A stretch of DNA of 64,000 nucleotides from Candidatus Raymondbacteria bacterium RIFOXYA2_FULL_49_16 (GTDB lineage: Bacteria; Fibrobacterota; OXYB2-FULL-49-7; XYB2-FULL-49-35): contig MFYT01000064.1 in NCBI GenBank assembly GCA_001789205.1, positions 62,001 to 126,000 on the forward strand, given 5' to 3'. The position numbers and the translations under genes were made by a program. How positions within the stretch are numbered: the first letter of the stretch is position 1; each line of letters starts with the position of its first letter. The notes beneath the pieces were generated by a model, which did not search any database, was not told where the DNA came from, and was given only the letters and a program-made list of their open reading frames with translations. Positions 31,241-45,119 of this stretch are shown here, in pieces.

Positions 31241-32362
31241 TCATCTCAATAATACCGCTTTCCGGGAGATGGTGTTGCGTCCAACGGTCAAACAGATATG
31301 GTAAATACCGCTTGCCATAGTATCCGCATCCCATATCAACGAGCCCATGCCATGAACCTTGGCAGAATACACAAGAGATCCTGAATGGGAAAAAACATCC
31401 AGCGAACCATGGTTTGAATGATTTCCCGCAGCATAAAATATCACTGTGTTTCCATTAAACGGGTTTGGTGCGTTGCTGCATGATAATTTTAAATTGCCGG
31501 AAGCGCCATCACGTCTTTCGGCCTTGTCTGTTCTAGCAATGTCCCCATAAAGGACCAGATGAACGGTGTTGCCGTCGCTGGTCCACGGGGAATCAGAGCC
31601 GTTTATACACGCTCCTCCGCATGGCTGGTATTGCCAGGAACATGTCTCATCACCGTAGAGGCATGCCATGCCATAATTATTGGCACCAACCTTGACCAGA
31701 AAGACTATACCGAAATTTCCCCGATTCGAAAGGATATACCGTACCTGGTTTGTGACTTCTATTCTCCGGAACCTCTTGTCGAGTACAGATGGCAAAGGAT
31801 AACCCTGCAACCGTCCATTTTGTCCAAAAATGGTATCAAGCGTTGTTGTCCCGTTTATAAGGCATGGGGAATCATAATACAGACCATCAGCCGACATATT
31901 GATCCAGAGTGCGTTTTCGGGGATATTTTCCGCGCCACGGTATCGTCGAATCCCCCCGGAAACATCCGCCACGCCGATCTGCATGGCGATCTGGCCCGCC
32001 GTATTCCACGCGTTGCCCGCCATCCATCCGTCGGTCACTTCACCGCAGAGAAACGCCGAATCAACAGAGCCATTCAAAGTGGAATCATCAAGGTTTATGG
32101 ACCAAAATCCAGCGCTGAATCCATGCCAGGCGCCAGGCCCGCCGCCGACCATGAAACCCGCGTCGTTGTACTGCACTGATTCCGAATGAAAACTGGTGAC
32201 TATTTTCCCTTCGTGGACAATTGTGCCTTGAGGAAGTGAGGGCCCTGGATTGGAGGTGAGATCATACCCGTTTGTGAGAGCTTTATACCAAAAGACATGA
32301 ACGCCCTGAACTGCACAACAATAAGAGAAAACGCAAAATATCGCGGCGGTTATTTTTATCAT
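31241..32362 (-). CDS. Secreted protein with C-terminal sorting domain, paralogue A
   Basis: The 373-residue protein has a signal peptide, a beta-rich core starting HVFWYKALTNGYDL, and a C-terminal domain with SNAPNPFNGNTVI that matches T9SS-like sorting domains. The core contains VTNQVRYILSNRGNFGIVFL, reminiscent of DNRLRE-type beta-sandwich modules of extracellular polymer-associated proteins, but I cannot name a family firmly. It is a tandem duplicate of the next gene upstream, sharing PHVFWYKAL, the VDSAF..GEV.DGW block and the PWT.DGNTVH.V.YGD block. Function is unknown; surface adhesion or polymer binding is plausible. Confidence 0.75.
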   Translation of the reverse strand: MIKITAAIFCVFSYCCAVQGVHVFWYKALTNGYDLTSNPGPSLPQGTIVHEGKIVTSFHSESVQYNDAGFMVGGGPGAWHGFSAGFWSINLDDSTLNGSVDSAFLCGEVTDGWMAGNAWNTAGQIAMQIGVADVSGGIRRYRGAENIPENALWINMSADGLYYDSPCLINGTTTLDTIFGQNGRLQGYPLPSVLDKRFRRIEVTNQVRYILSNRGNFGIVFLVKVGANNYGMACLYGDETCSWQYQPCGGACINGSDSPWTSDGNTVHLVLYGDIARTDKAERRDGASGNLKLSCSNAPNPFNGNTVIFYAAGNHSNHGSLDVFSHSGSLVYSAKVHGMGSLIWDADTMASGIYHICLTVGRNTISRKAVLLR

Positions 32363-32400
32363 GTCATCCCCAATATTTTGAATAGTGTTTAGCTGCTATT

Positions 32401-33537
32401 TTATTTTTGAAGGAAGACTCTCTTTGACAACGTTTTATTCCCAACATGCGTACAAATCACATATACTCCGCCCGGCAGGTTTGCAGCTTTCCATAGAAAG
32501 CCATCCGCAACTTTTGAAAGAGGCGTGTCAAATGCGTGGACGCACATCCCTTTGATGTCATAAATCCTGAATATGACATTCCTGATGTTCCCACCCTTTC
32601 GCACGTTTTCCAAGGAAATAGTCGTCGATGGATTGAATGGATTTGGTGCGATATTGAGATGTATGTCCTCGTTCGCTCCAGGGACCTTTTTCTGAACAGC
32701 AACTCCGTTGGTAAGGTCTCCATACGCCACCACATGCACCGTATTGCCGTCCTCGGTCCATGGATTATCGGAGCCGTTAACGTTAATCAATGTTTTTTCA
32801 TAGGTAAAATTGCGGTCTTCGTCAGCATAAAGGTTGAATTTTCCCGTGCTTCCCTGGTTCGAAGGAACAAGGAATACTATTGCAAATTCACCACTGTTCG
32901 CCAGGATATAATTTACCTGTTTCGTAATAGTGAGCCTAAGAAACTGCCCGTCAAGCGATGATGGCATATTGACGGAAAGTCTTCCATTCAGACCATCAAC
33001 GGACAACATCGTATCGGTCCCCGGAATAGTAGGAAGAGTGTAATTCAAAGTACCAAAACTTATATCTTTCCATTCCGTATTTTCAGGAATTTCATTGCGG
33101 CCCCACATAGATATCCCAAAGGAAACATCAACAACGCCGCATTTGATATGTATCGGACCTGTATTATTATAGCTGTCCTCTGTCCATCCGTCCCGCACTT
33201 CACCAACAGCAAACGCCGAATCAACCCTTCCGGTCATTGCGGAGTCATTGAGGTCTTTTGACCATATGGCGGCACTCCATGCCTGCCAGTCGCCCGTGGC
33301 CGACCCAACGACAAAATGCGGCAAATCATAGCCATGGCCATTGGAATACGTTGCCGACACGATCATGCCCTCGTGCACGATTGCGTCTGAAGGAATACCG
33401 GGTCCAGGGTTGTTTTCAGCCAGCGCATATCCACTCAACAGCGCCTTGTACCAAAAAACATGGGGTTCCTGCGCTTCTGATACTATGGCGATGAACGCCG
33501 CCACGCTAAAAATGACGATTACGTGTTTTTTTAACAT
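32401..33537 (-). CDS. Secreted protein with C-terminal sorting domain, paralogue B
   Basis: The 378-residue protein is the tandem partner of the downstream gene. It has a signal peptide, HVFWYKALLSGYAL at the start of the mature part, VDSAFAVGEVRDGW, LTITKQVNYILANSGEFAIV, and a sorting domain with NIAPNPFNPSTTISLENV. A strong AAAAGGAG precedes the ATG. The spacing of 38 bases to paralogue A suggests one transcript. No catalytic motif is visible, so it looks like a binding or structural surface protein. Confidence 0.75.
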   Translation of the reverse strand: MLKKHVIVIFSVAAFIAIVSEAQEPHVFWYKALLSGYALAENNPGPGIPSDAIVHEGMIVSATYSNGHGYDLPHFVVGSATGDWQAWSAAIWSKDLNDSAMTGRVDSAFAVGEVRDGWTEDSYNNTGPIHIKCGVVDVSFGISMWGRNEIPENTEWKDISFGTLNYTLPTIPGTDTMLSVDGLNGRLSVNMPSSLDGQFLRLTITKQVNYILANSGEFAIVFLVPSNQGSTGKFNLYADEDRNFTYEKTLINVNGSDNPWTEDGNTVHVVAYGDLTNGVAVQKKVPGANEDIHLNIAPNPFNPSTTISLENVRKGGNIRNVIFRIYDIKGMCVHAFDTPLSKVADGFLWKAANLPGGVYVICTHVGNKTLSKRVFLQK

Positions 33538-33593: not shown

Positions 33594-35120
33594 TCACTTA
33601 ATCAGCAGCAGACTTTTCTCATATATTACTTTTTGCTCCTTGACACGCAACAGATATAATCCGCTCGCAAGGTCTCGTGCGTTCCAGACAAAGCCAGCGG
33701 TGCGCTGGGAGAAACCAGCGATAAATTGCTGGATCAATTTGCCGCGAGTGTTATATACGCCAAGCTCTATGTCAGGGTCGTTAACGTCTAATCCTTGTAT
33801 TTTTATCACAGTTAACGGATTAAACGGGTTTGGAAAAGCGGTAATAGAAATGCTACGCGTATTATTATCATTCCTTTTCTCGCTCAATGCTGGATCCATG
33901 ATGCTAAACACATGTACGATCGGTTTTTTATTGTCCCAACCGTCATTGCTTTTTCCTTCCAAAATATATACCAGTCCGCGTTCACGGTCATACGAACCGC
34001 CGTCAATGGGGCTTTGGAAACATATAGCATCGGGATTTGTGAACAAAAAATCCCGTACATCCCATATCGCGTAAGGAGCCAGATTAGGCGCTTTCTCCTT
34101 TTTTGCCACAGATGCGAGATCCTCAGGACTGTAAAAGAGGATCTCGGTCTTGCACCTCCTGCCCTGCGGACCTTGGGTGCGACCACATTCCGGATCTGTT
34201 CCATACCATGTTGAATCACAATTACCTCCGGCTATTATGACCGCTGTTTTATGGCCCGCCGTAAGCCACTCGGCCATGGACCAGCCTGCTGATATGCCGG
34301 AATAACTTGGCCATGCATTGGATTCTGGATAGTGAAGCAGTTCCACCGCCGGCACATCAGCGTCGAACGAGGGGGGATTTCCCCATGCCCATGGCGCACA
34401 TGCGTATAAATTTGGACCGCGCGAGTCGCTTCCTTGTCCCCACCGATAACGTCCTGTGGCAAGGTTCATTCCCTGTACATTGCTATCAGCCCAGTCTGAC
34501 GGGATTTCGCACATATAGCCCGCGGTCCTCGTGTTTGGAAAATTGGCGATGTTCCACAAGGACGTTGGAGCAGGGTTCGAAAGATCAAGGTCAAACCATC
34601 CGTGCGAAGGTCCATCATTATACTCCCAGTATTTCGGCCAGGTAATGTGCATTTTAGCCTTGTTCTGTGAACCCTGCGCTGGAAGATAGCAGACATCACC
34701 AACACGTTCCTGGTCCGTTGGCGTATATCCCGGGGGTAAGATATTAACTGGAAGCGCAGTAACGCTTGCCACAGGAAGAGAGTCAAAACATTTAGTGGCG
34801 GAAATAACAGGCGCTGGGATACTTACTTCGCCAACCGCATACTGTTGATAGAGGTATAAAGATCCCGGATACCCATCGTTAGGGCCGTTTGAGTCTCCTT
34901 TGGGACAATACCCAACAGCGCCGATTCGCAATGCTGCCCATAAACGCGGCATCCGGAAAGCGCCTTTATATACTAGGTCTCTTGGATACAATAGTTCAGC
35001 ATGAATGGAAACAACGCCAATGGTCATGCAAAGAAACCATGGTAAAACAAAACAAACAAGCAGTATTTTGTGCAGAGGCGTCTTTTTTTCAGGACAATCC
35101 AACGTATAATACAACCGCAT
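33594..35120 (-). CDS. Large secreted protein of unknown family with T9SS-like sorting domain
   Basis: The 508-residue protein starts at 35120, fixed by GGAGGAGG seven bases upstream; the frame opens at 35171. The hydrophobic stretch ILLVCFVLPWFLCMTIGVVS serves as signal peptide after a charged n-region. The mature part begins LLYPRDLVYKGAFRMP and has many Trp and Tyr residues and scattered Cys. Segments such as GSYDRERGLVYILEG suggest a beta-propeller. The end carries TAFPNPFNPLTVIKIQG, a sorting domain. I recognise no enzyme family. It sits between the CBM9-like gene and the paralogue pair. Confidence 0.7.
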   Translation of the reverse strand: MRLYYTLDCPEKKTPLHKILLVCFVLPWFLCMTIGVVSIHAELLYPRDLVYKGAFRMPRLWAALRIGAVGYCPKGDSNGPNDGYPGSLYLYQQYAVGEVSIPAPVISATKCFDSLPVASVTALPVNILPPGYTPTDQERVGDVCYLPAQGSQNKAKMHITWPKYWEYNDGPSHGWFDLDLSNPAPTSLWNIANFPNTRTAGYMCEIPSDWADSNVQGMNLATGRYRWGQGSDSRGPNLYACAPWAWGNPPSFDADVPAVELLHYPESNAWPSYSGISAGWSMAEWLTAGHKTAVIIAGGNCDSTWYGTDPECGRTQGPQGRRCKTEILFYSPEDLASVAKKEKAPNLAPYAIWDVRDFLFTNPDAICFQSPIDGGSYDRERGLVYILEGKSNDGWDNKKPIVHVFSIMDPALSEKRNDNNTRSISITAFPNPFNPLTVIKIQGLDVNDPDIELGVYNTRGKLIQQFIAGFSQRTAGFVWNARDLASGLYLLRVKEQKVIYEKSLLLIK

Positions 35121-35184
35121 AAGACGCCTCCTCCATGAATAATACCATATATAGAAATCCCTTGAGACCATTATTCTGGAACGC

Positions 35185-36435
35185 TCATTTTAAAAACAAC
35201 ATCTTTCCCGTCATTCTTTTCACATTATCATCAATGGTATACATATATATTCCGCCTGCAACGGAATTCCCCGCTTTATCCGCGCCATTCCATAACGCTT
35301 TTGAATTATTGGCCTTTAATGTCTTAATGACATTTCCTCTAACATCATAGATGGAAATATCAGCGTTTCTTTTCAGGCCAGAATAACAAATGGTTGTTGC
35401 CGGATTAAATGGGTTGGGCTGCACAATAGCCGAAAAGGGCGACGGTTCATCGGTCCTTATGTCATCAGTGGAGATTGGCGATTCCATGAGCTTGAATGAA
35501 GGGTAAAAATATGACTCCGTGGAATGGTAATGATCCGTTTCCGCGAATCCATAATAATCTTTATGCCACCTGCAATCCGGAGACTCGGCCGTACTCGCAT
35601 ATGCGCCTTGCTGCCATAAGGTGCTGCTTCTGATATCTCTGTCCGTGGTAATCGTTCCCATGCCGAAAACCGCTCCGCTGTTGAAAGCATGGGGGCATGC
35701 ACCCGAACGCATCGCATCATTAAAAAAAGCAAAGGGTACGAACACCTCCAGGCCAAATTCTTTTTTACTCGTATCCATCGCGGTAATCGCGAACGCAATA
35801 TTATCGATTGACCTCGAACCGCTCGGATAGCTTTCCACACATGACTCGGGGCCGCCGCCGATAAAACCACTTACTTTAAAAACACACGCCTTAAATTTCT
35901 CCGGGCAGAAATTCAGCATTATTTTATAGACAAATCCCCCATTGTACGGGTTCTTTTCAAGGTTGCATGGGTCGAAACAGAATTCAATGCCTTCGTAGCC
36001 CCAAAAATTCTCCCATGCGGTGCATGCCTTGATGGTATAATATGAATCGTCATACCGTTTCGCCGCAATGTAGAGGCCCCGGCCTGTTTTCCAAAGCATG
36101 GCAACATCGGCCTGCTGGTCATTTGTGCCGGTATAATTATATGTACCCCCATTCTCTATGATGTTTGACGGATCTGTAATGTCCCATTTACAGAAATCAA
36201 ACCACGTTACACCCTTGTTCAAAGGATTAAACACGGAAACCCACGACGGCTCATTCAATATGCCATCAACGACAATATCTTCATTGGGTTGAAAGACTTC
36301 ATATGCCCTAAAATCTGGACTTGCCGTATCCCATCTGGCCCGCCATTCTTCAATGTATTCTACCGGAGGGCATACAAAACCAAATGACGCGCAATAAAAA
36401 ATAAATTTGAACAGTATGGCGAATAGCGGTCTCAT
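35185..36435 (-). CDS. Secreted CBM9-like carbohydrate-binding protein with sorting domain
   Basis: The 416-residue protein has a signal peptide and then IVVDGILNEPSWVSV, the opening strand of family 9 carbohydrate-binding (DOMON-like) modules. DVAMLWKTGRGLYIAAKRYD and GIEFCFDPCN, further marks of that fold, follow. The C terminus reads IVQPNPFNPATTICYSG, a sorting domain. CBM9 modules bind ends of plant polysaccharides such as xylan or cellulose. The likely role is to hold a polymer at the cell surface. It follows a short secreted ORF and a tandem operator-like box. Confidence 0.82.
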   Translation of the reverse strand: MRPLFAILFKFIFYCASFGFVCPPVEYIEEWRARWDTASPDFRAYEVFQPNEDIVVDGILNEPSWVSVFNPLNKGVTWFDFCKWDITDPSNIIENGGTYNYTGTNDQQADVAMLWKTGRGLYIAAKRYDDSYYTIKACTAWENFWGYEGIEFCFDPCNLEKNPYNGGFVYKIMLNFCPEKFKACVFKVSGFIGGGPESCVESYPSGSRSIDNIAFAITAMDTSKKEFGLEVFVPFAFFNDAMRSGACPHAFNSGAVFGMGTITTDRDIRSSTLWQQGAYASTAESPDCRWHKDYYGFAETDHYHSTESYFYPSFKLMESPISTDDIRTDEPSPFSAIVQPNPFNPATTICYSGLKRNADISIYDVRGNVIKTLKANNSKALWNGADKAGNSVAGGIYMYTIDDNVKRMTGKMLFLK

Positions 36436-36486: not shown

Positions 36487-36648
36487 TTACCATACTTCGG
36501 CTACGATTTCGTGTGAAAGGTCGCGCAGGACCTTTCCATGAGCGCCGGCTGTTACTGTTATCGAGAAGGTCTGTCCGTTGACTGCCACAACAAAGGTAAA
36601 AATGCACGCAATTGTTGTTCCAATCAAAAAATTGAATGGTTTTTCCAT
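36487..36648 (-). CDS. Short secreted peptide, probably a truncated remnant
   Basis: The 53-residue frame has a good signal peptide (FNFLIGTTIACIFTFVVAV), then QTFSITVTAGAHGKV, which resembles the start of a bacterial repeat module common in large surface proteins, and stops after 28 more residues. It is the first ORF behind the tandem GCATTTCTGGAAA box. It could be the stump of a decayed surface-protein gene or a real small secreted peptide. The frame also allows a start at 36669. Confidence 0.35.
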   Translation of the reverse strand: MEKPFNFLIGTTIACIFTFVVAVNGQTFSITVTAGAHGKVLRDLSHEIVAEVW

Positions 36649-36727
36649 TGTAGTCCCCATTTCTCCCATATTTTAAAAATAATTGGAAAAAGAAGCGCAT
36701 CAATCCCATTTCGGATTTATATATATC

Positions 36728-36780
36728 ACCAATCAGGAAATAACACCCGCATTTCTGGAAACTGCTGGCATTTCTGGAAA
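36728..36780. promoter_or_regulatory. Tandem operator-like box, copy 1 (upstream of the surface-protein operon)
   Basis: GCATTTCTGGAAA occurs at 36749-36761 and again at 36768-36780 (19-base period). A weaker copy, ACCAATCAGGAAA (8 of 13), lies 21 bases before the first. The linker TAACACC is shared with copy 2 near 39100 (there AAACACC). The box lies 80-130 bases upstream of the minus-strand run that begins with the short peptide and the CBM9-like gene. Confidence 0.7.
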
Positions 36781-36854
36781 ATGCATCAAAATAAGATGGT
36801 TTTACTCAAAATTTCCGGTGAACATAGTATCATTGATCTAGCAAAAACATGATA

Positions 36855-39011
36855 CTACTTAACCAATGAGGCGTATTTAATGATTTTCCCATTTCTATTT
36901 CTGGCGACAATGACATAAATACCGCTTGCATATTTCGATGCATTCCAATCATATTCCGTAAAATCGTGTGCGATTGTTCTTGTTGCTTCCAGTTTTTCAA
37001 CGAGATTCCCTTTAATATCATGTATTTGCACCGTGCCATAGTGCTGATTGATGAATTCGTTTGCCGGGCAGCGGTCCGAACCTCGGCTTTTAATAGTTAT
37101 TACAGTATGAGGATTGAACGGATTTGGATTAATGTCCATGTCAAACATTTCTATTATAGCGCCTCGTTTTTGGGTTTTAATTATCCCTGAATCAGTGACA
37201 ATGATTCCCAGTTCATTGCCCTGGGGTGATACGCTGAACCCCTCTATTGTAAAAAGACCATCTTCATCGGCTTCCACCGTGCCTGATTGGATAGGGATGG
37301 CTTCTCCAATGGCCGTGTTTTTCCAATAAAATTGCGTGTGTGGAAAATGCAAAAGGCGCTGCAACCGTCTTGGAGTAATGTCCACCGTAACTGTTTGAGG
37401 CCCTGCATAATCGGGAATATCGCTTCGAGAACCAGTGTCGAGTTTCAAGGTTGTGCTCAATAAAAGCGCGCTGTCCACTGGGGCGCTCACAACAGGATTT
37501 TCCATCGTTGACCATAGTATGCGGGCGTTGCATTGCCCCGTATCATGGCACAGCGCATTTATACATGCGGCGGAAAGCGTATCGTCGCTTGCGGCGTTTT
37601 TTAAGGCGAGGACAAAATGATTTCTGCCTACTTTTCCGCACGGATTGTGCCCCATATACACCGGTTCGTGCCCATTGTCGGACCAGCCGCCGGCATAGGG
37701 CATGCCATATCGGGCAAAGCTATTGCTCCCGTGATCGGACCAAATGGGGGCGCCTTGTTCTGTCCAACTCACAATGCCGTCCTGCGTCCCATTGGAAAAA
37801 TGATAAAAAGGTACTGTGTCGTTTTTAAATATCCGGGGGATAATACTGTCCCTGACATTGGCCCATGAGTTCGAACGAAGGTCCACTGCTTTATTGCCAA
37901 TAAGCCTGCTATTGTCTATTAGATCTCTGCATTCCAGGCTTTGATCGATCCCCCACATGATGCCATCGGAATTCATTATTGATTGATTGCCGTTTGTCAC
38001 ACTGGCAACCGCTTCGATGTATGCGAAAATATCCGGATGGTGCGCTGCGAAGGTAAATGACCCGCTGCCTCCCATGGAACCTCCTTTGAGACACACCCAG
38101 TTGTCATCGGCGATCCAAGGGGCATTCCCTGAACATAACCATCTGATTGCGCACCAATTGCGGTATTCGGTGTAATTGAACACGATGCTATGCGAACCAG
38201 GCCTTCTTCTGTTTGTGAGCGAATCGGCATATCCAAAATGCCAACTGAGATAAGGGTCGTCAAAATAGATCCGCAGATTGCTTTTTTTGACTTCTTCTGA
38301 TCCAATGGCGTCGGAGTTCTTTATGCTAGCTGCCGCACCGTCTATCCAGGCGCTGAAATAATCACCTCTGCCGTGCAGATCGCAGAACAGCCTTTTTTTT
38401 ACGCCTTTCCATTCCTTTTTTGCGGCAATGTATATAGGATACGCGTATCCTTCCAGTTGTTTGTTCCATTTATCAAACGGCATCCAGAACATGAATACAT
38501 GGCCGGAGCTGTCTTCGGAACACGCCTGTTCCACCGGACTGACCATCAGGCATTCTTGTTCGCTGACCGGGCCAACGGTATTCATGGTGTTCAGTATGGT
38601 ATCTTCGCGGCCGTCCGTGACCGCGGTTATTGCGTAATAAAAATCCCCGCCGCCACTGTCCTGGCATGTCCAAACGAGCAGTTCTTGTTCCCGTGCAAGG
38701 GGAACGCCCAGATATTGAATCCTGAAAAAACCGGTTCCAAGCGCCGCTTTTAGCTTACCGTTGTTCAAATCAGCGAAATGTTTTATATACGTGGAACCTG
38801 AGTCTATCTGCGCTATTCTTTTTGCTTCAATAAGGTCTGAAGTGGTGACAGGGGTAAATGAACGGTAGATGCGATATTGCGACGCGGACGCAATGTCATT
38901 CCATGTTAAAAAAGTCTGCCCGTTTTTATGTTCGGCTTCTACATCTGCGTGTGCAGTGCCATAAAGAACAATCATATATGCTAACATGCAAAAGACCACT
39001 ATCTTTCTCAT
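36855..39011 (-). CDS. Secreted alpha/beta hydrolase (esterase-like) with Fn3-like start and sorting domain
   Basis: The 718-residue protein has a signal peptide. A fibronectin III-like module follows (about 25-150; TFLTWNDIASASQYRIYRS), then a large alpha/beta-hydrolase region with nucleophile motif GGSMGGSGSF and candidate His residues in DNGHEPVYMGH. The C-terminal sorting domain has DINPNPFNPHTVITI. It resembles secreted carbohydrate esterases or peptidases of the prolyl-oligopeptidase clan; the substrate is unknown. The second ATG (39011) is preferred because the first overlaps the AAGGA ribosome site. A tandem operator-like box lies 75-130 bases upstream. Confidence 0.78.
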   Translation of the reverse strand: MRKIVVFCMLAYMIVLYGTAHADVEAEHKNGQTFLTWNDIASASQYRIYRSFTPVTTSDLIEAKRIAQIDSGSTYIKHFADLNNGKLKAALGTGFFRIQYLGVPLAREQELLVWTCQDSGGGDFYYAITAVTDGREDTILNTMNTVGPVSEQECLMVSPVEQACSEDSSGHVFMFWMPFDKWNKQLEGYAYPIYIAAKKEWKGVKKRLFCDLHGRGDYFSAWIDGAAASIKNSDAIGSEEVKKSNLRIYFDDPYLSWHFGYADSLTNRRRPGSHSIVFNYTEYRNWCAIRWLCSGNAPWIADDNWVCLKGGSMGGSGSFTFAAHHPDIFAYIEAVASVTNGNQSIMNSDGIMWGIDQSLECRDLIDNSRLIGNKAVDLRSNSWANVRDSIIPRIFKNDTVPFYHFSNGTQDGIVSWTEQGAPIWSDHGSNSFARYGMPYAGGWSDNGHEPVYMGHNPCGKVGRNHFVLALKNAASDDTLSAACINALCHDTGQCNARILWSTMENPVVSAPVDSALLLSTTLKLDTGSRSDIPDYAGPQTVTVDITPRRLQRLLHFPHTQFYWKNTAIGEAIPIQSGTVEADEDGLFTIEGFSVSPQGNELGIIVTDSGIIKTQKRGAIIEMFDMDINPNPFNPHTVITIKSRGSDRCPANEFINQHYGTVQIHDIKGNLVEKLEATRTIAHDFTEYDWNASKYASGIYVIVARNRNGKIIKYASLVK

Positions 39012-39085
39012 ATGCATCCTTTCTTTATTAATGAATATAGTCCCAAACTACGCAATAACAATTGCATAAAAAACGATAAATAGGC

Positions 39086-39138
39086 GCTTTTTTGGAAAAA
39101 ACACCGGCATTTCTGGAAATCAACAGCATTTTTAGAAA
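39086..39138. promoter_or_regulatory. Tandem operator-like box, copy 2 (upstream of the secreted hydrolase)
   Basis: Three related half-sites are visible: GCTTTTTTGGAAA (39086-39098, 11 of 13), GCATTTCTGGAAA (39107-39119) and GCATTTTTAGAAA (39126-39138), with periods of 21 and 19 bases. The same spacing is seen in copy 1 near 36750. The array lies between the membrane AraC gene and the hydrolase gene, in the hydrolase promoter region. Confidence 0.72.
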
Positions 39139-39198: not shown

Positions 39199-41166
39199 TT
39201 AGGGCCTATGTTCCTTGCGATATTCGCCAGGGGTTATACCGGTCGCTTTTTTAAATACTCGATGGAAATTATTGAATCCATCAATGCCGACGGCATACGC
39301 TATTTCATTTACGCTTTTTGACGTGCTTTTTAGCAGTTCCATGGCTTTTTGAAGGCGTATATTATGCAGATGCTGTATCGGCGACAGACCGTTGACAGCC
39401 TGATATATCGAATAGAGCCTTCGTTCGCTCATATAGGCTTGTTCCGCGATTTTGTACCGGTCAAGATCCTGTTCCGCGTAATGGTCAAACAGGTATTGTT
39501 CAATCGTTTCCGCGATCTTCTTCCATTGTTCCGGAATCTTTTCCATTAAGGGCCGGCGCATAACGCGTTGCCGTATCAATAGCGCCCCCAGTGCGGCGAT
39601 GATAGCGCAAAGGACGGCCGCGTACAAAAGGCCTCGTTTTTTTTGCAGGAAAAAGAAAAGGGTCGGCAAGGCATATATTTTGCCTTTTGTATCATTGACT
39701 ATATACCCATTTACGATCCACAAGCCCTGTTCCAAATAGCCGGGCAGCCTGAATGCAAACCGCGCTTTTCCGGTCCGGGTGTTGAATGCATATTGGTCGA
39801 TAACGATAAAATCGTTGGGGTATTCGCGTGACTGGCCGTTGGGCGGGACGAGTTTCCATTCCTTTGTCGCTTCGAGACCGCTATAATATACCGAAGATCC
39901 TGAAGACAGACTGAAAATGTGGTTCATGGACCTTTTTGCGGTCCCAAAGCGGTCTGAACGTAAAAGAGGGTGTCTGGCGAATTGCACGTTTAAATCAACA
40001 TAGGTGGTTGAGTCCGATGCGATGCCGGATATTTCTATAATAACCGTATCGCCGTAAAAATAGTGGTTGGTCACCCTTTCCGAAGAAAAAGCCATGGTGG
40101 CGCCAATTGAGTTTTCTTCTATTGAATCCGTCCGTTTTGGGCTTATCATGAAAGTTCTTTGCTCCGACCATAGGGAATCGCCGGGAATTTTAACCATGTA
40201 CGAGTACATACCTCCCGGTGAAAAATCCTTGCCAAACCGCAATGTCTGGCCTGGCATGAAAACGCTGTCGCGGACTAGACGCAAAGCGGAATCGATGCGT
40301 ACGCGAACCGATGTCGTATTATCACGGCCATGGACAGTGAATGCCGGCGCCGCCGGAAACACATATTCATACTGAGCGGGAGAGAACGGTTCGACATGCG
40401 TGTCAGCGGATCCCGCTCTTTTATTTCCAATGCAAATATCATCCATGTCGCAGGATAGGAATGGCGCGTTGTTCTTATGGGTAAAACCAAAGCTTATGTT
40501 ATGATAGAAACCCAAAGTGTGCACGAGAGCGCGGCTTTTCGCTCCGGCAAGCGTACCATCGATAAAAAGCGAGTCAGTCAGTATACCGTCTCTGATCCTG
40601 AGAAAAATGCATACAGTGCACCATGTATTAAATGCAAGATGCTGCGAAAGGATCTGAAGAGGGATGTCTTCGATTGAGGACCGTATCAGAAGCTTAAGCT
40701 GTACCCGTCCGCTGTCATCGTAGGCGGCAATAAGGGCTGGATTGCAGTAATAGCCGGCTGCCGGGGGTTTCATGATCATTTCCAGAATACTGCAATACCC
40801 AGACTGAAAAGGTGTCCGCTGTTCGGACCGGTTGTTCAGCCTGATTGAGAACTGGATATAAAGCCCTCCCGCTACACTCTTTTCTTCGAGAGGCCATCGA
40901 ACAGAGCGTTGGATAAACGCCTCATTTGTATCAGCGTACAGCCGCAACCCGTTCTTTCCCCTGTGGGCCGCTTCAGGGGTAATGGAAACATTGGATTTGG
41001 AAAGGCCCCACATTTTAAGTGAAGCGGTATCTTCAAAATCATTCTTCAGAATACATTCGGGAAAGACCGGGACGGAGAACAATAAAATCACGAACAATTG
41101 GCTGATCCAGCGAGGGTTTTTCAGTATACAAAGCATAGCAAACCTAATTGAAGAGAAAATAATCAT
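39199..41166 (-). CDS. Membrane-anchored AraC-family regulator with lectin-like extracytoplasmic domain
   Basis: The 655-residue protein has an N-terminal signal or anchor. A concanavalin/LamG-like beta-sandwich follows (about 45-235; AAHRGKNGLRLYAD, MDDICIGNKR), then beta-rich modules to about 505. A membrane helix RGLLYAAVLCAIIAALGALLI (about 510-532) leads to a C-terminal AraC helix-turn-helix pair (about 560-655; LQKAMELLKSTSKSVNEIAYAVG, HRVFKKATGITPGEYRK). It would detect a ligand outside the cytoplasm and bind DNA while membrane bound. It stands directly upstream of the hydrolase gene. The nearby direct-repeat boxes are candidate targets. The ATG at 41136 is an alternative start. Confidence 0.85.
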   Translation of the reverse strand: MIIFSSIRFAMLCILKNPRWISQLFVILLFSVPVFPECILKNDFEDTASLKMWGLSKSNVSITPEAAHRGKNGLRLYADTNEAFIQRSVRWPLEEKSVAGGLYIQFSIRLNNRSEQRTPFQSGYCSILEMIMKPPAAGYYCNPALIAAYDDSGRVQLKLLIRSSIEDIPLQILSQHLAFNTWCTVCIFLRIRDGILTDSLFIDGTLAGAKSRALVHTLGFYHNISFGFTHKNNAPFLSCDMDDICIGNKRAGSADTHVEPFSPAQYEYVFPAAPAFTVHGRDNTTSVRVRIDSALRLVRDSVFMPGQTLRFGKDFSPGGMYSYMVKIPGDSLWSEQRTFMISPKRTDSIEENSIGATMAFSSERVTNHYFYGDTVIIEISGIASDSTTYVDLNVQFARHPLLRSDRFGTAKRSMNHIFSLSSGSSVYYSGLEATKEWKLVPPNGQSREYPNDFIVIDQYAFNTRTGKARFAFRLPGYLEQGLWIVNGYIVNDTKGKIYALPTLFFFLQKKRGLLYAAVLCAIIAALGALLIRQRVMRRPLMEKIPEQWKKIAETIEQYLFDHYAEQDLDRYKIAEQAYMSERRLYSIYQAVNGLSPIQHLHNIRLQKAMELLKSTSKSVNEIAYAVGIDGFNNFHRVFKKATGITPGEYRKEHRP

Positions 41167-41223: not shown

Positions 41224-42699
41224 CTATTCATCAACCCCTTTTTCATACCCTTTAATCCCCGTATATCTTTTTCTCATTTTTTCAGCTATCTCCTGTCTAT
41301 TGATAGACTGATAATATATTATATATTCCGGCAGATTTCCTCGTGTATGAAAGGGACCGCCTTCCTCAATCACTTTCCGCATAGGATCCTCGTGTTCCTT
41401 TGACGAAGCAAGCTGCTCCCGCTCCCAATCATTTAAAATTGAACGTCCTTTATCAATAAATTCCGGTTTTTGATCGACCAGATTATTTAGTTCATGCGGA
41501 TCTTTCTTCCAGTTGAAAAGCATATACTCGGGAAGCTCTTTCAATCCGTCCATATAGGTTCTAATAAGGATATGATCACCAAAGAGAACCGATCGTTGAC
41601 AGCTCCAGGGAGCATGGCTTAAGATGAGGAACTCTCTTCCATTTTCTGAGGATCTGAGAAAAGCATCTTTAAAACTTTTTCCGTCCCATTTGCCTGGAAC
41701 AACTAAGCCTGCAAGCCCGAGAATTGTTGCGGAAATATCAAATTGATAATGAAAAGCTGAATTTCTTCCAGGTTCAACTCCGGGCCATTTTATAATCATG
41801 GGGACACGGTTTGTGATAAGATCAGCTGTATGGTGATCGCCGTATATATTCAGTTCTCCCTGATTTTCTCCATGATCAGATGTAATAATTATTGCGGTTT
41901 CTTCATAAATCCCCAGATCTTTTAATTTTTGGACCATTTTCCCGACATGAGCATCCGCATAGCGAATACCAACATCATATCCATCAATCCATGTTTTATA
42001 ATCATCCAGGTTTTTGATCTCTTTCACTTCCCGGTGGGTTGGTTTATCCAACCATGGGGCGTCAAGCGGTGCATTGGCTGAATGAGGGCCAAAGCTCTGC
42101 TGATGTTTATCTATCATCTCCTGTGTCACCCAGGTAGCAATCGGTTCATCTTTAAAGGGATTCTCAACATACTTCGGTGTTCTATAGGGTCTATGCGGGT
42201 CCCAGATATTATAGTGCAGGAACCAGTTTTCTTTTTTATTACTATTGTCTAGCATTTCTAAAGCTTTGGGTGTGACTTCATCAGCTGTTTCGTGTCCATC
42301 CTTTCCGCAATTATATATTTCATTGAATCCGGCATAGAACCACCAAGCCGAATGCCTGTCCGCAAAGGAAGTGACACTGGCCGTATAGTAGCCATTTCTA
42401 CGCAGAACCTCTACAAACTGCCGGTTCTCTTCAGAGGTATGAAATTTCCTGGTTATGCCCTCTTTATACTTGTCCGCGTAGGCGCCGCCATGATTGATGG
42501 CCCCATTATGAAAACCAAACCGCCCGGAATGGAATGCGGCACGGGAAGGCAGACAGGGCGTATCGGAAGCAAAACACTGCGTGAACCGTACACTGTCTTT
42601 ACAGATACTGTCGATATGAGAGGATGTGTTTCTATGGTATCCATAACACCCCAGATGATCGGGACGCAGTGTATCAATATCGATGAGAAGGATTTTCAT
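41224..42699 (-). CDS. Sulfatase (S1 family, Cys-type)
   Basis: The 491-residue enzyme has the alkaline-phosphatase-fold sulfatase core. DIDTLRPDHLGCYGY supplies the metal-binding Asp residues, and the signature C-L-P-S-R begins at Cys49, the residue converted to formylglycine. IITSDHGEN gives further metal ligands. No signal peptide is visible, so it seems cytoplasmic and would act on small sulfated sugars after uptake. The formylglycine-generating enzyme is not in the window. AAGGAACG precedes the ATG. It is 23 bases behind the IclR gene and almost certainly controlled by it. Confidence 0.92.
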   Translation of the reverse strand: MKILLIDIDTLRPDHLGCYGYHRNTSSHIDSICKDSVRFTQCFASDTPCLPSRAAFHSGRFGFHNGAINHGGAYADKYKEGITRKFHTSEENRQFVEVLRRNGYYTASVTSFADRHSAWWFYAGFNEIYNCGKDGHETADEVTPKALEMLDNSNKKENWFLHYNIWDPHRPYRTPKYVENPFKDEPIATWVTQEMIDKHQQSFGPHSANAPLDAPWLDKPTHREVKEIKNLDDYKTWIDGYDVGIRYADAHVGKMVQKLKDLGIYEETAIIITSDHGENQGELNIYGDHHTADLITNRVPMIIKWPGVEPGRNSAFHYQFDISATILGLAGLVVPGKWDGKSFKDAFLRSSENGREFLILSHAPWSCQRSVLFGDHILIRTYMDGLKELPEYMLFNWKKDPHELNNLVDQKPEFIDKGRSILNDWEREQLASSKEHEDPMRKVIEEGGPFHTRGNLPEYIIYYQSINRQEIAEKMRKRYTGIKGYEKGVDE

Positions 42700-42722: not shown

Positions 42723-43466
42723 TTATTTTAAGATATTTTGCAGCATCCGCTGCATTGATGAGATTATTTTTTTAGCATCATCAGTTTCTATTGGAGAGAT
42801 GGATTTAGCCAAAACAAAAATCCCTTTAAGCTGGCTTCTCTCTCGCACAGGAAAAGCAATCCGTTTAACACCATTAATATTGTAATAAAGATCCTGTGCA
42901 TACCCGTTTGTTTTAATTTCCTGTATTGCGGAATGTATTTGAGCGGTTGAATGGTTTTTTCGTCTGGTCTGTGCATCGTACTGCCATATCTTCAGCGGAA
43001 TTTGTTGATCCCCAAATGCATACCCCACCCCGGAAACAGCCTCCAGTTCATCATCCCACTTCCTGATGAATCCGATCTGTGCCAGCACTTTCACTTCCTT
43101 ATCGGAAGGGTCTTTCCGGTCCACGAGTATTGGCCCCATCTTGGAAGGGATATACCATTCAGCGGTATATCCGGTCTTCTCTGCGGCCTGCAAAAGTAAC
43201 TGATTAATTTTTTCTTTAAATTGATCAGCTGCTGGAATAGCAGGTATCAGTTTCTGTAGTGCATAATAATGACCGGTTCTCTCATTTCTGGAGACAATAT
43301 CTAAAGAAATCATTTCGTCTAGAATCCGTAACAATGAAGATTTTGGGATCTTTAATACATTTGTCATCTCGTGAAGAGAACTATTATCGTTTTTAGATAA
43401 AAACTGAAGGATTTGGATTCCTCGTGTTAAAGCTGGAGCTGCAGATTTACAAATAATAGATTCCAT
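42723..43466 (-). CDS. IclR-family transcriptional regulator
   Basis: The 247-residue protein has an N-terminal winged helix (RGIQILQFLSKNDNSSLHEM, IPKSSLLRILDEM) and a C-terminal effector-binding domain, the IclR layout. The start at 43466 is chosen because the upstream extension (to 43610) is low-complexity and crosses the palindromic operator. A 24-bp perfect palindrome directly abuts the ATG, fitting autoregulation. The sulfatase gene follows by 23 bases, so a sulfated-sugar derivative is the likely effector. Confidence 0.85.
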   Translation of the reverse strand: MESIICKSAAPALTRGIQILQFLSKNDNSSLHEMTNVLKIPKSSLLRILDEMISLDIVSRNERTGHYYALQKLIPAIPAADQFKEKINQLLLQAAEKTGYTAEWYIPSKMGPILVDRKDPSDKEVKVLAQIGFIRKWDDELEAVSGVGYAFGDQQIPLKIWQYDAQTRRKNHSTAQIHSAIQEIKTNGYAQDLYYNINGVKRIAFPVRERSQLKGIFVLAKSISPIETDDAKKIISSMQRMLQNILK

Positions 43467-43488
43467 ATTTAGAATATATTCTAAATAT
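43465..43488. promoter_or_regulatory. 24-bp perfect palindrome at the iclR start: probable operator
   Basis: The half-site ATATTTAGAATA is followed immediately by its reverse complement TATTCTAAATAT, centred between 43476 and 43477. It overlaps the first two bases of the iclR start codon, where bound repressor would block initiation. Confidence 0.75.
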
Positions 43489-43684
43489 AGTATCACCGTA
43501 TCTATAAACTCAACTCTTATTTTCACACATAGTGTCGAACACACTTTAAGTTCCACCAAAGGTGGGTGGTCTCTGGAAGGACCCGCTTCGCTCTCATGAA
43601 AACAAGGCAAAGCGGGTATTCGAACAAGAAGGGGAATAGGAAAAGGTTGCGTCAGCCGAGGAACAGAATTTTCAACGGAAGCTA

Positions 43685-45073
43685 CTAACTAATTCCCTGT
43701 TTTTCCAACACATCACGAATAATGCGCTCCAAAGCGTGCAGGGAAAAGTTCTCTCTCGCAATGGCATAATTTTTTTCCACAACCTGGGTCCGCCTTTTAC
43801 CGTCCCGCAACAAAGCGATAACTTCACCGGCGGCCCGGCGTACAATGGACGGCTCCACGGTAACCAAGTTTCGCTTGTCTGTTCCAGAAACTTGATTTCC
43901 AAGGGACACCACGTCAAAACCGCATTGGGCCAAATCACTGGTCCAAACAGGGTATTCAAATAAACAAACCGGCAATTTGGTAAAGACCGCTTCAATGAAT
44001 TGATTGCCCCACCCCTCCCAAACAGAGGGATAAGTCACAAAATCAGCATGCGCATAACTGTCCCAAAGCGAGTAGATTTTTCTTCCTTCTTCCGCGCCCC
44101 GGCTATGTTTGACAATAGTGGCGCACCAAACCACCTCAACGCCCATTTCAGCGGCTTTGGTTTTGAGCGCCTCTGGATAAGTTCCCGTCAATCCAATGCC
44201 CTCCACATAGCCTGCGCAAACCAGTACAATGCGATCACGCTTTCCAAAACTTCGGCCATGATACAATGGCCCGGCCTCCAAACGAACGCGGTTTTCCGGC
44301 TTTTGCAATTCAGCAATCAGATCAATGGCCAATTCCACGCCTTTGCGGTCCAAAATACGCGTCGCTTGCAGAAAAACAAGATCCGTTTCACGGACACCAA
44401 TGGCGTTACGAAAATCGGCGTTGTACGCATCAAGGGTCCATGCGGGACGATCAAAATCAAAAACATTGGGAACAACGCGGGCCTCTTGCCCTGTTCGCCG
44501 CTTCAGTTCAGCTTGGGCAATGCGGTTGATGACCATATGATGGATATACGGGCGGATAGGCGGGGCGTATTTTCGATAATGCGCCGCCACTTCAGCGCAT
44601 GTTGGTTCCACTTCGCCCGAATCTTCCCACCAAAAATCATGGTTGTGACACGTAACACGCAACCCCCGTTCCGCATGCAACTCGTCCACTGCCTCCACAA
44701 GGGCCTGCATACCAGGCAGGTTGTAGCCCACGGAAACCAGGTTGTTTGGGAAAAGTAATTCAACCTTGAGATCACGCAGATGCTTTAGGAACTGTGGTTT
44801 GATGCGAGCAGCCTGCGCCTCCACCTCAGCCATTAGTTCCAAGGAAGAGTTGTAATCAGAGAGCTTCCGGGTGCCATTTTTGATCACCTTTTGCGTTATA
44901 GGATGAAACGGGTAGAGTTCGGGTATGCAATGCCCACCCGGGACATCCTCGTTACCTGAAATATAATGGACCGTATGGCCCATACGCTCAAGAATAACCC
45001 TCCATTTATCCACTTCCAAAGACACGCCGTCAGTGCGTCCCAAACGATGTTGTGTGAATGCGATGACCGCCAT
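43685..45073 (-). CDS. GT4-family glycosyltransferase
   Basis: The 462-residue protein shows the two Rossmann domains of GT-B enzymes. The N-terminal part reads AFTQHRLGRTDGVSLEVDKW and HNHDFWWED; the C-terminal part has VFLQATRILDRKGVELAIDL and VTYPSVWEGWGNQFIEAV, with the Glu-containing EX7E-type region. It would add sugars from a nucleotide donor to an unknown acceptor in the cytoplasm. The start at 45073 has AAAGGAAAT upstream. The 218-base gap to iclR holds small hairpins but no gene. It resembles proteins that act on soluble sugars more than O-antigen enzymes; this is uncertain. Confidence 0.82.
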   Translation of the reverse strand: MAVIAFTQHRLGRTDGVSLEVDKWRVILERMGHTVHYISGNEDVPGGHCIPELYPFHPITQKVIKNGTRKLSDYNSSLELMAEVEAQAARIKPQFLKHLRDLKVELLFPNNLVSVGYNLPGMQALVEAVDELHAERGLRVTCHNHDFWWEDSGEVEPTCAEVAAHYRKYAPPIRPYIHHMVINRIAQAELKRRTGQEARVVPNVFDFDRPAWTLDAYNADFRNAIGVRETDLVFLQATRILDRKGVELAIDLIAELQKPENRVRLEAGPLYHGRSFGKRDRIVLVCAGYVEGIGLTGTYPEALKTKAAEMGVEVVWCATIVKHSRGAEEGRKIYSLWDSYAHADFVTYPSVWEGWGNQFIEAVFTKLPVCLFEYPVWTSDLAQCGFDVVSLGNQVSGTDKRNLVTVEPSIVRRAAGEVIALLRDGKRRTQVVEKNYAIARENFSLHALERIIRDVLEKQGIS

Positions 45074-45119
45074 AATATTTCCTTTATTCAACTACCCGAA
45101 CCATACCCGGAGAACATAT

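Follow-up and report, generated by a model that had tools for sequence, protein, structure and literature searches.

Two arrays of direct half-sites, A and B, were found beside a membrane-bound AraC-type regulator gene in the window (the whole 64,000-nucleotide stretch analysed here). With a probability of about 0.7, they are the operators of this regulator, which would activate two promoters from the membrane, with an exported esterase and a group of surface proteins as its probable targets. Paralogues that have arrays of their own beside them lend support to the assignment to the adjacent AraC protein. The operator array is real and private to this locus, and three-box arrays are a family trait of the loci of these membrane AraC regulators. 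The array elements and the regulator gene are as follows.

39126-39138 (minus strand), array A, distal half-site, TTTCTAAAAATGC
39107-39119 (minus strand), array A, middle half-site, TTTCCAGAAATGC
39086-39098 (minus strand), array A, proximal half-site, TTTCCAAAAAAGC
39034-39061 (minus strand), array A, promoter-like TTGTTA-16-TATATT, a consensus match only, at a distance common to eight arrays
36768-36780 (minus strand), array B, distal half-site, TTTCCAGAAATGC
36749-36761 (minus strand), array B, middle half-site, TTTCCAGAAATGC
36728-36740 (minus strand), array B, proximal half-site, degenerate, TTTCCTGATTGGT
36676-36681 (minus strand), array B, -10-like TATTTT, at offset 59 bp from the proximal half-site start
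39199-41166 (minus strand), membrane-bound AraC-type regulator, 655 aa, assigned from the HTH_18 match (E = 1.3e-21), hydropathy, the AlphaFold2 model and Foldseek

Array A is situated between the AraC-type gene and the esterase gene, ahead of the latter. Array B follows at a distance of 2.36 kb, behind the esterase gene and ahead of the 53-aa frame and 416-aa gene listed below; all genes of the block are read on the minus strand. Read in the direction of the genes, the three direct half-sites of each array start 19 and then 21 bp apart, and the linker AACACC is common to both, just as a previous sequence-only reading had stated for the two intergenic regions. Against dinucleotide shuffles, the three-box self-similarity of the two arrays resulted in z values of 6.6 and 4.3. 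The search with the tandem GCATTTCTGGAAA-N6-GCATTTCTGGAAA, up to 3 mismatches being allowed, gave 2 matches in the 5.43 Mb genome, namely arrays A and B, and none with the reversed control; the uniqueness of the tandem holds for this draft of 112 contigs. Single boxes with no more than 1 mismatch were detected 31 times genome-wide compared to 16 times for the control. Among 12 single copies inspected outside the locus, 11 were inside a long reading frame and none had a tandem partner. The genome-wide regulon with this exact motif, which the sequence-only reading had anticipated, was rejected on these counts.

The regulator has an N-terminal hydrophobic segment at residues 21-39 and a membrane helix at 513-531, both determined from hydropathy. 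The outer region between them (residues ~40-512, about 470 residues) comprises a concanavalin A-like domain and further beta domains. The C-terminal domain (PF12833, residues 573-651) contains the two helix-turn-helix motifs by which AraC/XylS proteins are recognised, and Foldseek superimposed it on AraC-type DNA-binding domains with an rmsd of 1-2 Å. The hydropathy peak at 513-531 is kept in the paralogues, with the sensor and the DNA-binding domain on either side of it in one chain. Histidine kinase and receiver domains were absent from the regulator in the Pfam and NCBIfam scans.

The AlphaFold2 model, built from the paralogues, had a mean pLDDT of 80. The outer domain is predicted to be a concanavalin A-like jelly roll located at the start of the outer region, and its modelled fold was matched by Foldseek to legume lectins, calreticulin and alginate lyase, a polysaccharide lyase. 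Toxin receptor-binding domains were at the top of the Foldseek list; the rmsd over the common jelly roll was 16-18 Å and no relation to them is claimed. The outer region belongs to no Pfam family. A glycan would be a plausible ligand, as judged from the fold alone, which also serves non-carbohydrate ligands. Three earlier claims on this gene agreed with these results: it is the only AraC-type gene here, being the sole HTH_18 match on the 129-kb contig; it has the topology of a membrane sensor; and its outer domain is lectin-like, which holds at the level of the predicted fold.

A sulfatase-family gene with no obvious signal peptide (41224-42699, minus strand) precedes the AraC gene by 57 nt on this strand, and an IclR-type regulator gene (42723-43610) lies upstream of it. 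The gene at 43685-45091 (minus strand) is close to mannosylglucosylglycerate synthase (NF041101, E = 7.7e-103, which is nevertheless below the curated cut-off), suggesting that its product may take part in compatible-solute synthesis.

The putative target genes, from mechanical gene calls, are the following.

36855-39017 (minus strand), exported esterase-like alpha/beta hydrolase, 720 aa, with a C-terminal tail of the T9SS type; PF00756 just above the cut-off, Por_Secre_tail just below
36487-36648 (minus strand), short reading frame of 53 aa with a signal-peptide-like start, the first frame behind array B
35185-36435 (minus strand), exported protein of 416 aa with a T9SS-type tail, the first long gene behind array B
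33594-35171 (minus strand), exported protein of 525 aa with a T9SS-type tail and relatives in four other AraC-type regulator clusters
32401-33537 (minus strand), exported protein of 378 aa with a T9SS-type tail, paralogue of the 373-aa protein
31241-32362 (minus strand), exported protein of 373 aa with a T9SS-type tail

The Por_Secre_tail matches of all five long target genes were just below the Pfam cut-off, and three of the five exceeded the cut-off of NCBIfam TIGR04183. The presence of an exported esterase and T9SS-tailed proteins behind the arrays is in line with the earlier proposal that surface proteins and a hydrolase are the targets. The 53-aa frame, separated from the 416-aa gene by about 50 nt, may encode a small exported protein or be what is left of a truncated gene; the fetched paralogue loci contained no relative of it. 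The 373- and 378-aa proteins (31241-33537) are paralogues at ~40% identity, a third member being encoded in the L066 cluster, and the relatives of the 525-aa protein are situated in the L074, L076, L060 and L073 clusters. The single-sequence structure prediction of the 416-aa protein reached a mean pLDDT of only 32.

The genome has 54 HTH_18 matches and about 14 full-length relatives of the window regulator. In the intergenic regions that directly follow the membrane AraC genes, an excess of self-similarity was detected at lags 19-22 and 40-43, even when the window was left out. Since control intergenic regions also had an excess at lag 20, weaker and accompanied by several other lags, the three boxes were compared directly. 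The mean three-box z was 2.56 in 10 close-paralogue regions and 0.58 in 48 controls (Mann-Whitney p = 0.0008); z was above 2.2 in seven of the 10 regions and above 2 in five of the 48 controls. Clear three-box arrays of variant sequence were found at L058, L059, L060, L063, L064, L068 and L076, the L058 region, which is not directly behind the AraC gene, having been included because an array had already been seen there. By the three-box score, the close-paralogue regions of L061, L065 and L067 had no significant array. The recurrence of the 19/21-bp spacing here and in the paralogue arrays is consistent with the earlier view that these direct repeats have the form of AraC-type sites. With the degenerate tandem TTTCNNNAAAA-N8-TTTCNNNAAAA, nine distinct places were obtained in the genome, four of which are arrays beside membrane AraC regulators. 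A fifth is situated between two divergent exported-protein genes (L097, G000:C64:30807-30837), on the window's contig ~31 kb before the window start, and the contig has no AraC-type gene that would belong to it.

From the start of the proximal half-site of array A to the start of its -10 hexamer (39034-39039), the distance is 59 bp. In the eight arrays compared, a -10-like hexamer was present near offset 58-60 bp from the proximal box start (exact offsets 57-62) more commonly than after random rotation of each profile, and the corresponding p value of 0.0012 is somewhat optimistic because the arrays were picked for clear boxes and the anchors were set by eye. Such a near-constant distance is as expected for an activator site. 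With this geometry, the proximal box would span about -71 to -59, and a further box could fit next to the -35, an arrangement which would match the placement of araI1/araI2 in the arabinose promoter. Of a putative fourth half-site touching the -35 region there is only a hint, a weak peak at +20 to +24 that is no higher than an A/T-rich peak at the -10 region, the two being of similar height.

The similarity of the HTH domains was compared with that of the arrays in seven paralogues. The register-free array similarity gave r = 0.75 with an exhaustive permutation p of 0.004. The fixed-register version, in which one array was in the wrong register, resulted in p = 0.10 and the rank correlation in p = 0.055, and because of these two values the comparison lends moderate support to array similarity following HTH similarity. 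Shared recent ancestry of whole cassettes could be another source of the correlation. The mean identity of boxes was 0.76 within an array and 0.56 between arrays, and the identity of the regulators has fallen to about 25-30%.

The closest esterase relatives of the window esterase are those of the L058 and L059 clusters, with 45% and 44% identity, respectively. Because these nearest relatives sit in paralogue clusters, the sensor, operator and esterase look like a cassette that was duplicated together. Among the genes behind regulators of the paralogue clusters are esterases, a GDSL lipase, a GH30 glycosidase, a Sde182-type cellulose-binding protein and a calcineurin-type phosphoesterase, a content which fits a role in polysaccharide breakdown and does not prove it. 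Among 168 genomes of the phylum, the outer-region profile at E ≤ 1e-6 had members in this genome only, and the search of contigs of other genomes gave one weak match to the regulator, restricted to the HTH. In the sister-order genome, membrane AraC proteins were detected whose outer domain matches less well, and an intergenic region there, behind a membrane AraC gene (L105, G001:C843, 5614-5729; the only genome placed in the same order), has two TTTC boxes spaced by 20 bp, a pair which alone is not significant. A close relative of the HTH part, only 166 aa long and with a membrane helix, is encoded beside an in-frame stop (L069:9060-9560, G000:C109) and is probably the remnant of a broken regulator gene. 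A wider reading, with slightly less than even odds, is that lineage-restricted membrane AraC sensors have spread as cassettes of a sensor, a three-box operator and a secreted enzyme, esterases included, and that each copy has drifted towards a private operator matched by its own HTH domain, which would result in many parallel glycan-response circuits without crosstalk. Under this reading, the sensors and their operators would amount to a natural experiment on how AraC proteins achieve DNA specificity.

In the proposed mechanism, the outer region would meet its periplasmic ligand, for which a carbohydrate fragment freed outside the cell is the likeliest candidate, and the signal would cross the single membrane helix to the cytoplasmic HTH domains. 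These would bind as dimers to the direct half-sites upstream of two promoters and activate transcription, of the esterase gene from one and of the 53-aa frame and the T9SS-tailed surface proteins of 416, 525, 378 and 373 aa from the other. We infer the AraC protein as the binder of the arrays, its dimeric state, activation, the glycan ligand and the transcription of the last four genes as one operon.

The direction of control is not readable from the sequence, and three boxes centred well upstream of the -35 would suit looping too, so that the AraC protein might bind the arrays and repress or merely shape the promoters. This is unlikely, as the position of the arrays upstream of the promoter at a near-constant distance and the weak fourth box near the -35 resemble activator sites of the AraC family such as araI1/araI2. 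It is rather improbable that another regulator, for instance the IclR-type protein (42723-43610), binds the arrays and that the AraC neighbour is incidental. Its gene and the AraC gene share a strand, with the IclR-type gene 1.6 kb upstream, and the TGGAAA half-sites resemble IclR-type boxes; however, the TTTCC..GGAAA arms face the opposite way to the usual IclR palindrome, and direct repeats at two helical turns are the AraC form. Moreover, the paralogous arrays adjoin membrane AraC genes, whereas none of the eight IclR HTH matches of the genome is in the fetched paralogue clusters.

A further explanation is that the repeats act behind the upstream gene as transcription terminators or RNA structures, which would suit the near self-complementarity of the boxes and one terminator-like hairpin that extends into the proximal box of array A. 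This explanation was mostly rejected and is very improbable: when the eight arrays were folded as RNA against shuffles, only L058 was clearly more stable (z = -2.5), with array A at -1.6 and the other six between -1.0 and +0.7, and no Rfam match was found in the window. Terminators would also leave the 19/21 spacing and the fixed distance to the -10-like hexamer unexplained. The chance is just as slight that the paralogous arrays are leftovers of copied cassettes with boxes under no selection. Regulators, esterases and surface proteins were clearly duplicated together, but unselected intergenic DNA would not keep the difference in box identity within and between arrays given above while the regulators diverged as far as they have.

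If these readings are true, AraC domains with their matching operators, graded in similarity within one genome, could give recognition rules for a very large regulator family. The system would also add a simple one-component sensor logic, comparable to that of Bacteroides polysaccharide-utilisation loci, in a poorly studied lineage which exports enzymes via a T9SS-like route.

The regulator HTH matches E. coli AraC by sequence and fold. Classical AraC, whose direct half-sites are about 21 bp apart, is soluble with an arabinose-binding cupin, whereas the window regulator is membrane-bound with a lectin-like outer domain. ToxR, CadC and TcpP exert one-component control of promoters from the membrane through an N-terminal winged-helix domain, in contrast to the C-terminal AraC-type domain here. 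As in the Bacteroides HTCS, a periplasmic sensor, a membrane helix and an AraC-type HTH are combined in one protein beside glycan-use genes; however, HTCS carry histidine kinase and receiver domains, and because both are absent, the window regulator is not an HTCS. No report on membrane-bound AraC regulators in this phylum was found in the literature. In its way of working, the system resembles that of Saccharophagus degradans 2-40, in which 16 of the 31 AraC-type regulators are membrane-bound one-component proteins and 13 of these 16 are paralogues (PMC2386152). Several adjoin cellulase or xylanase genes, and they were proposed as sensors of extracellular polysaccharides (PMC2386152). The regulators listed there have 2 or 6-7 membrane segments, and operator arrays are not described in the parts of that report consulted (PMC2386152). 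By comparison, the window system has an outer region without a Pfam family, T9SS-tailed targets and visible operators. Saccharophagus thus already provides membrane AraC one-component regulators that adjoin polysaccharide genes, and the present sensor family with its paired private operators is a lineage-specific variant; what is new is the sensor family itself and the visible set of private three-box operators.
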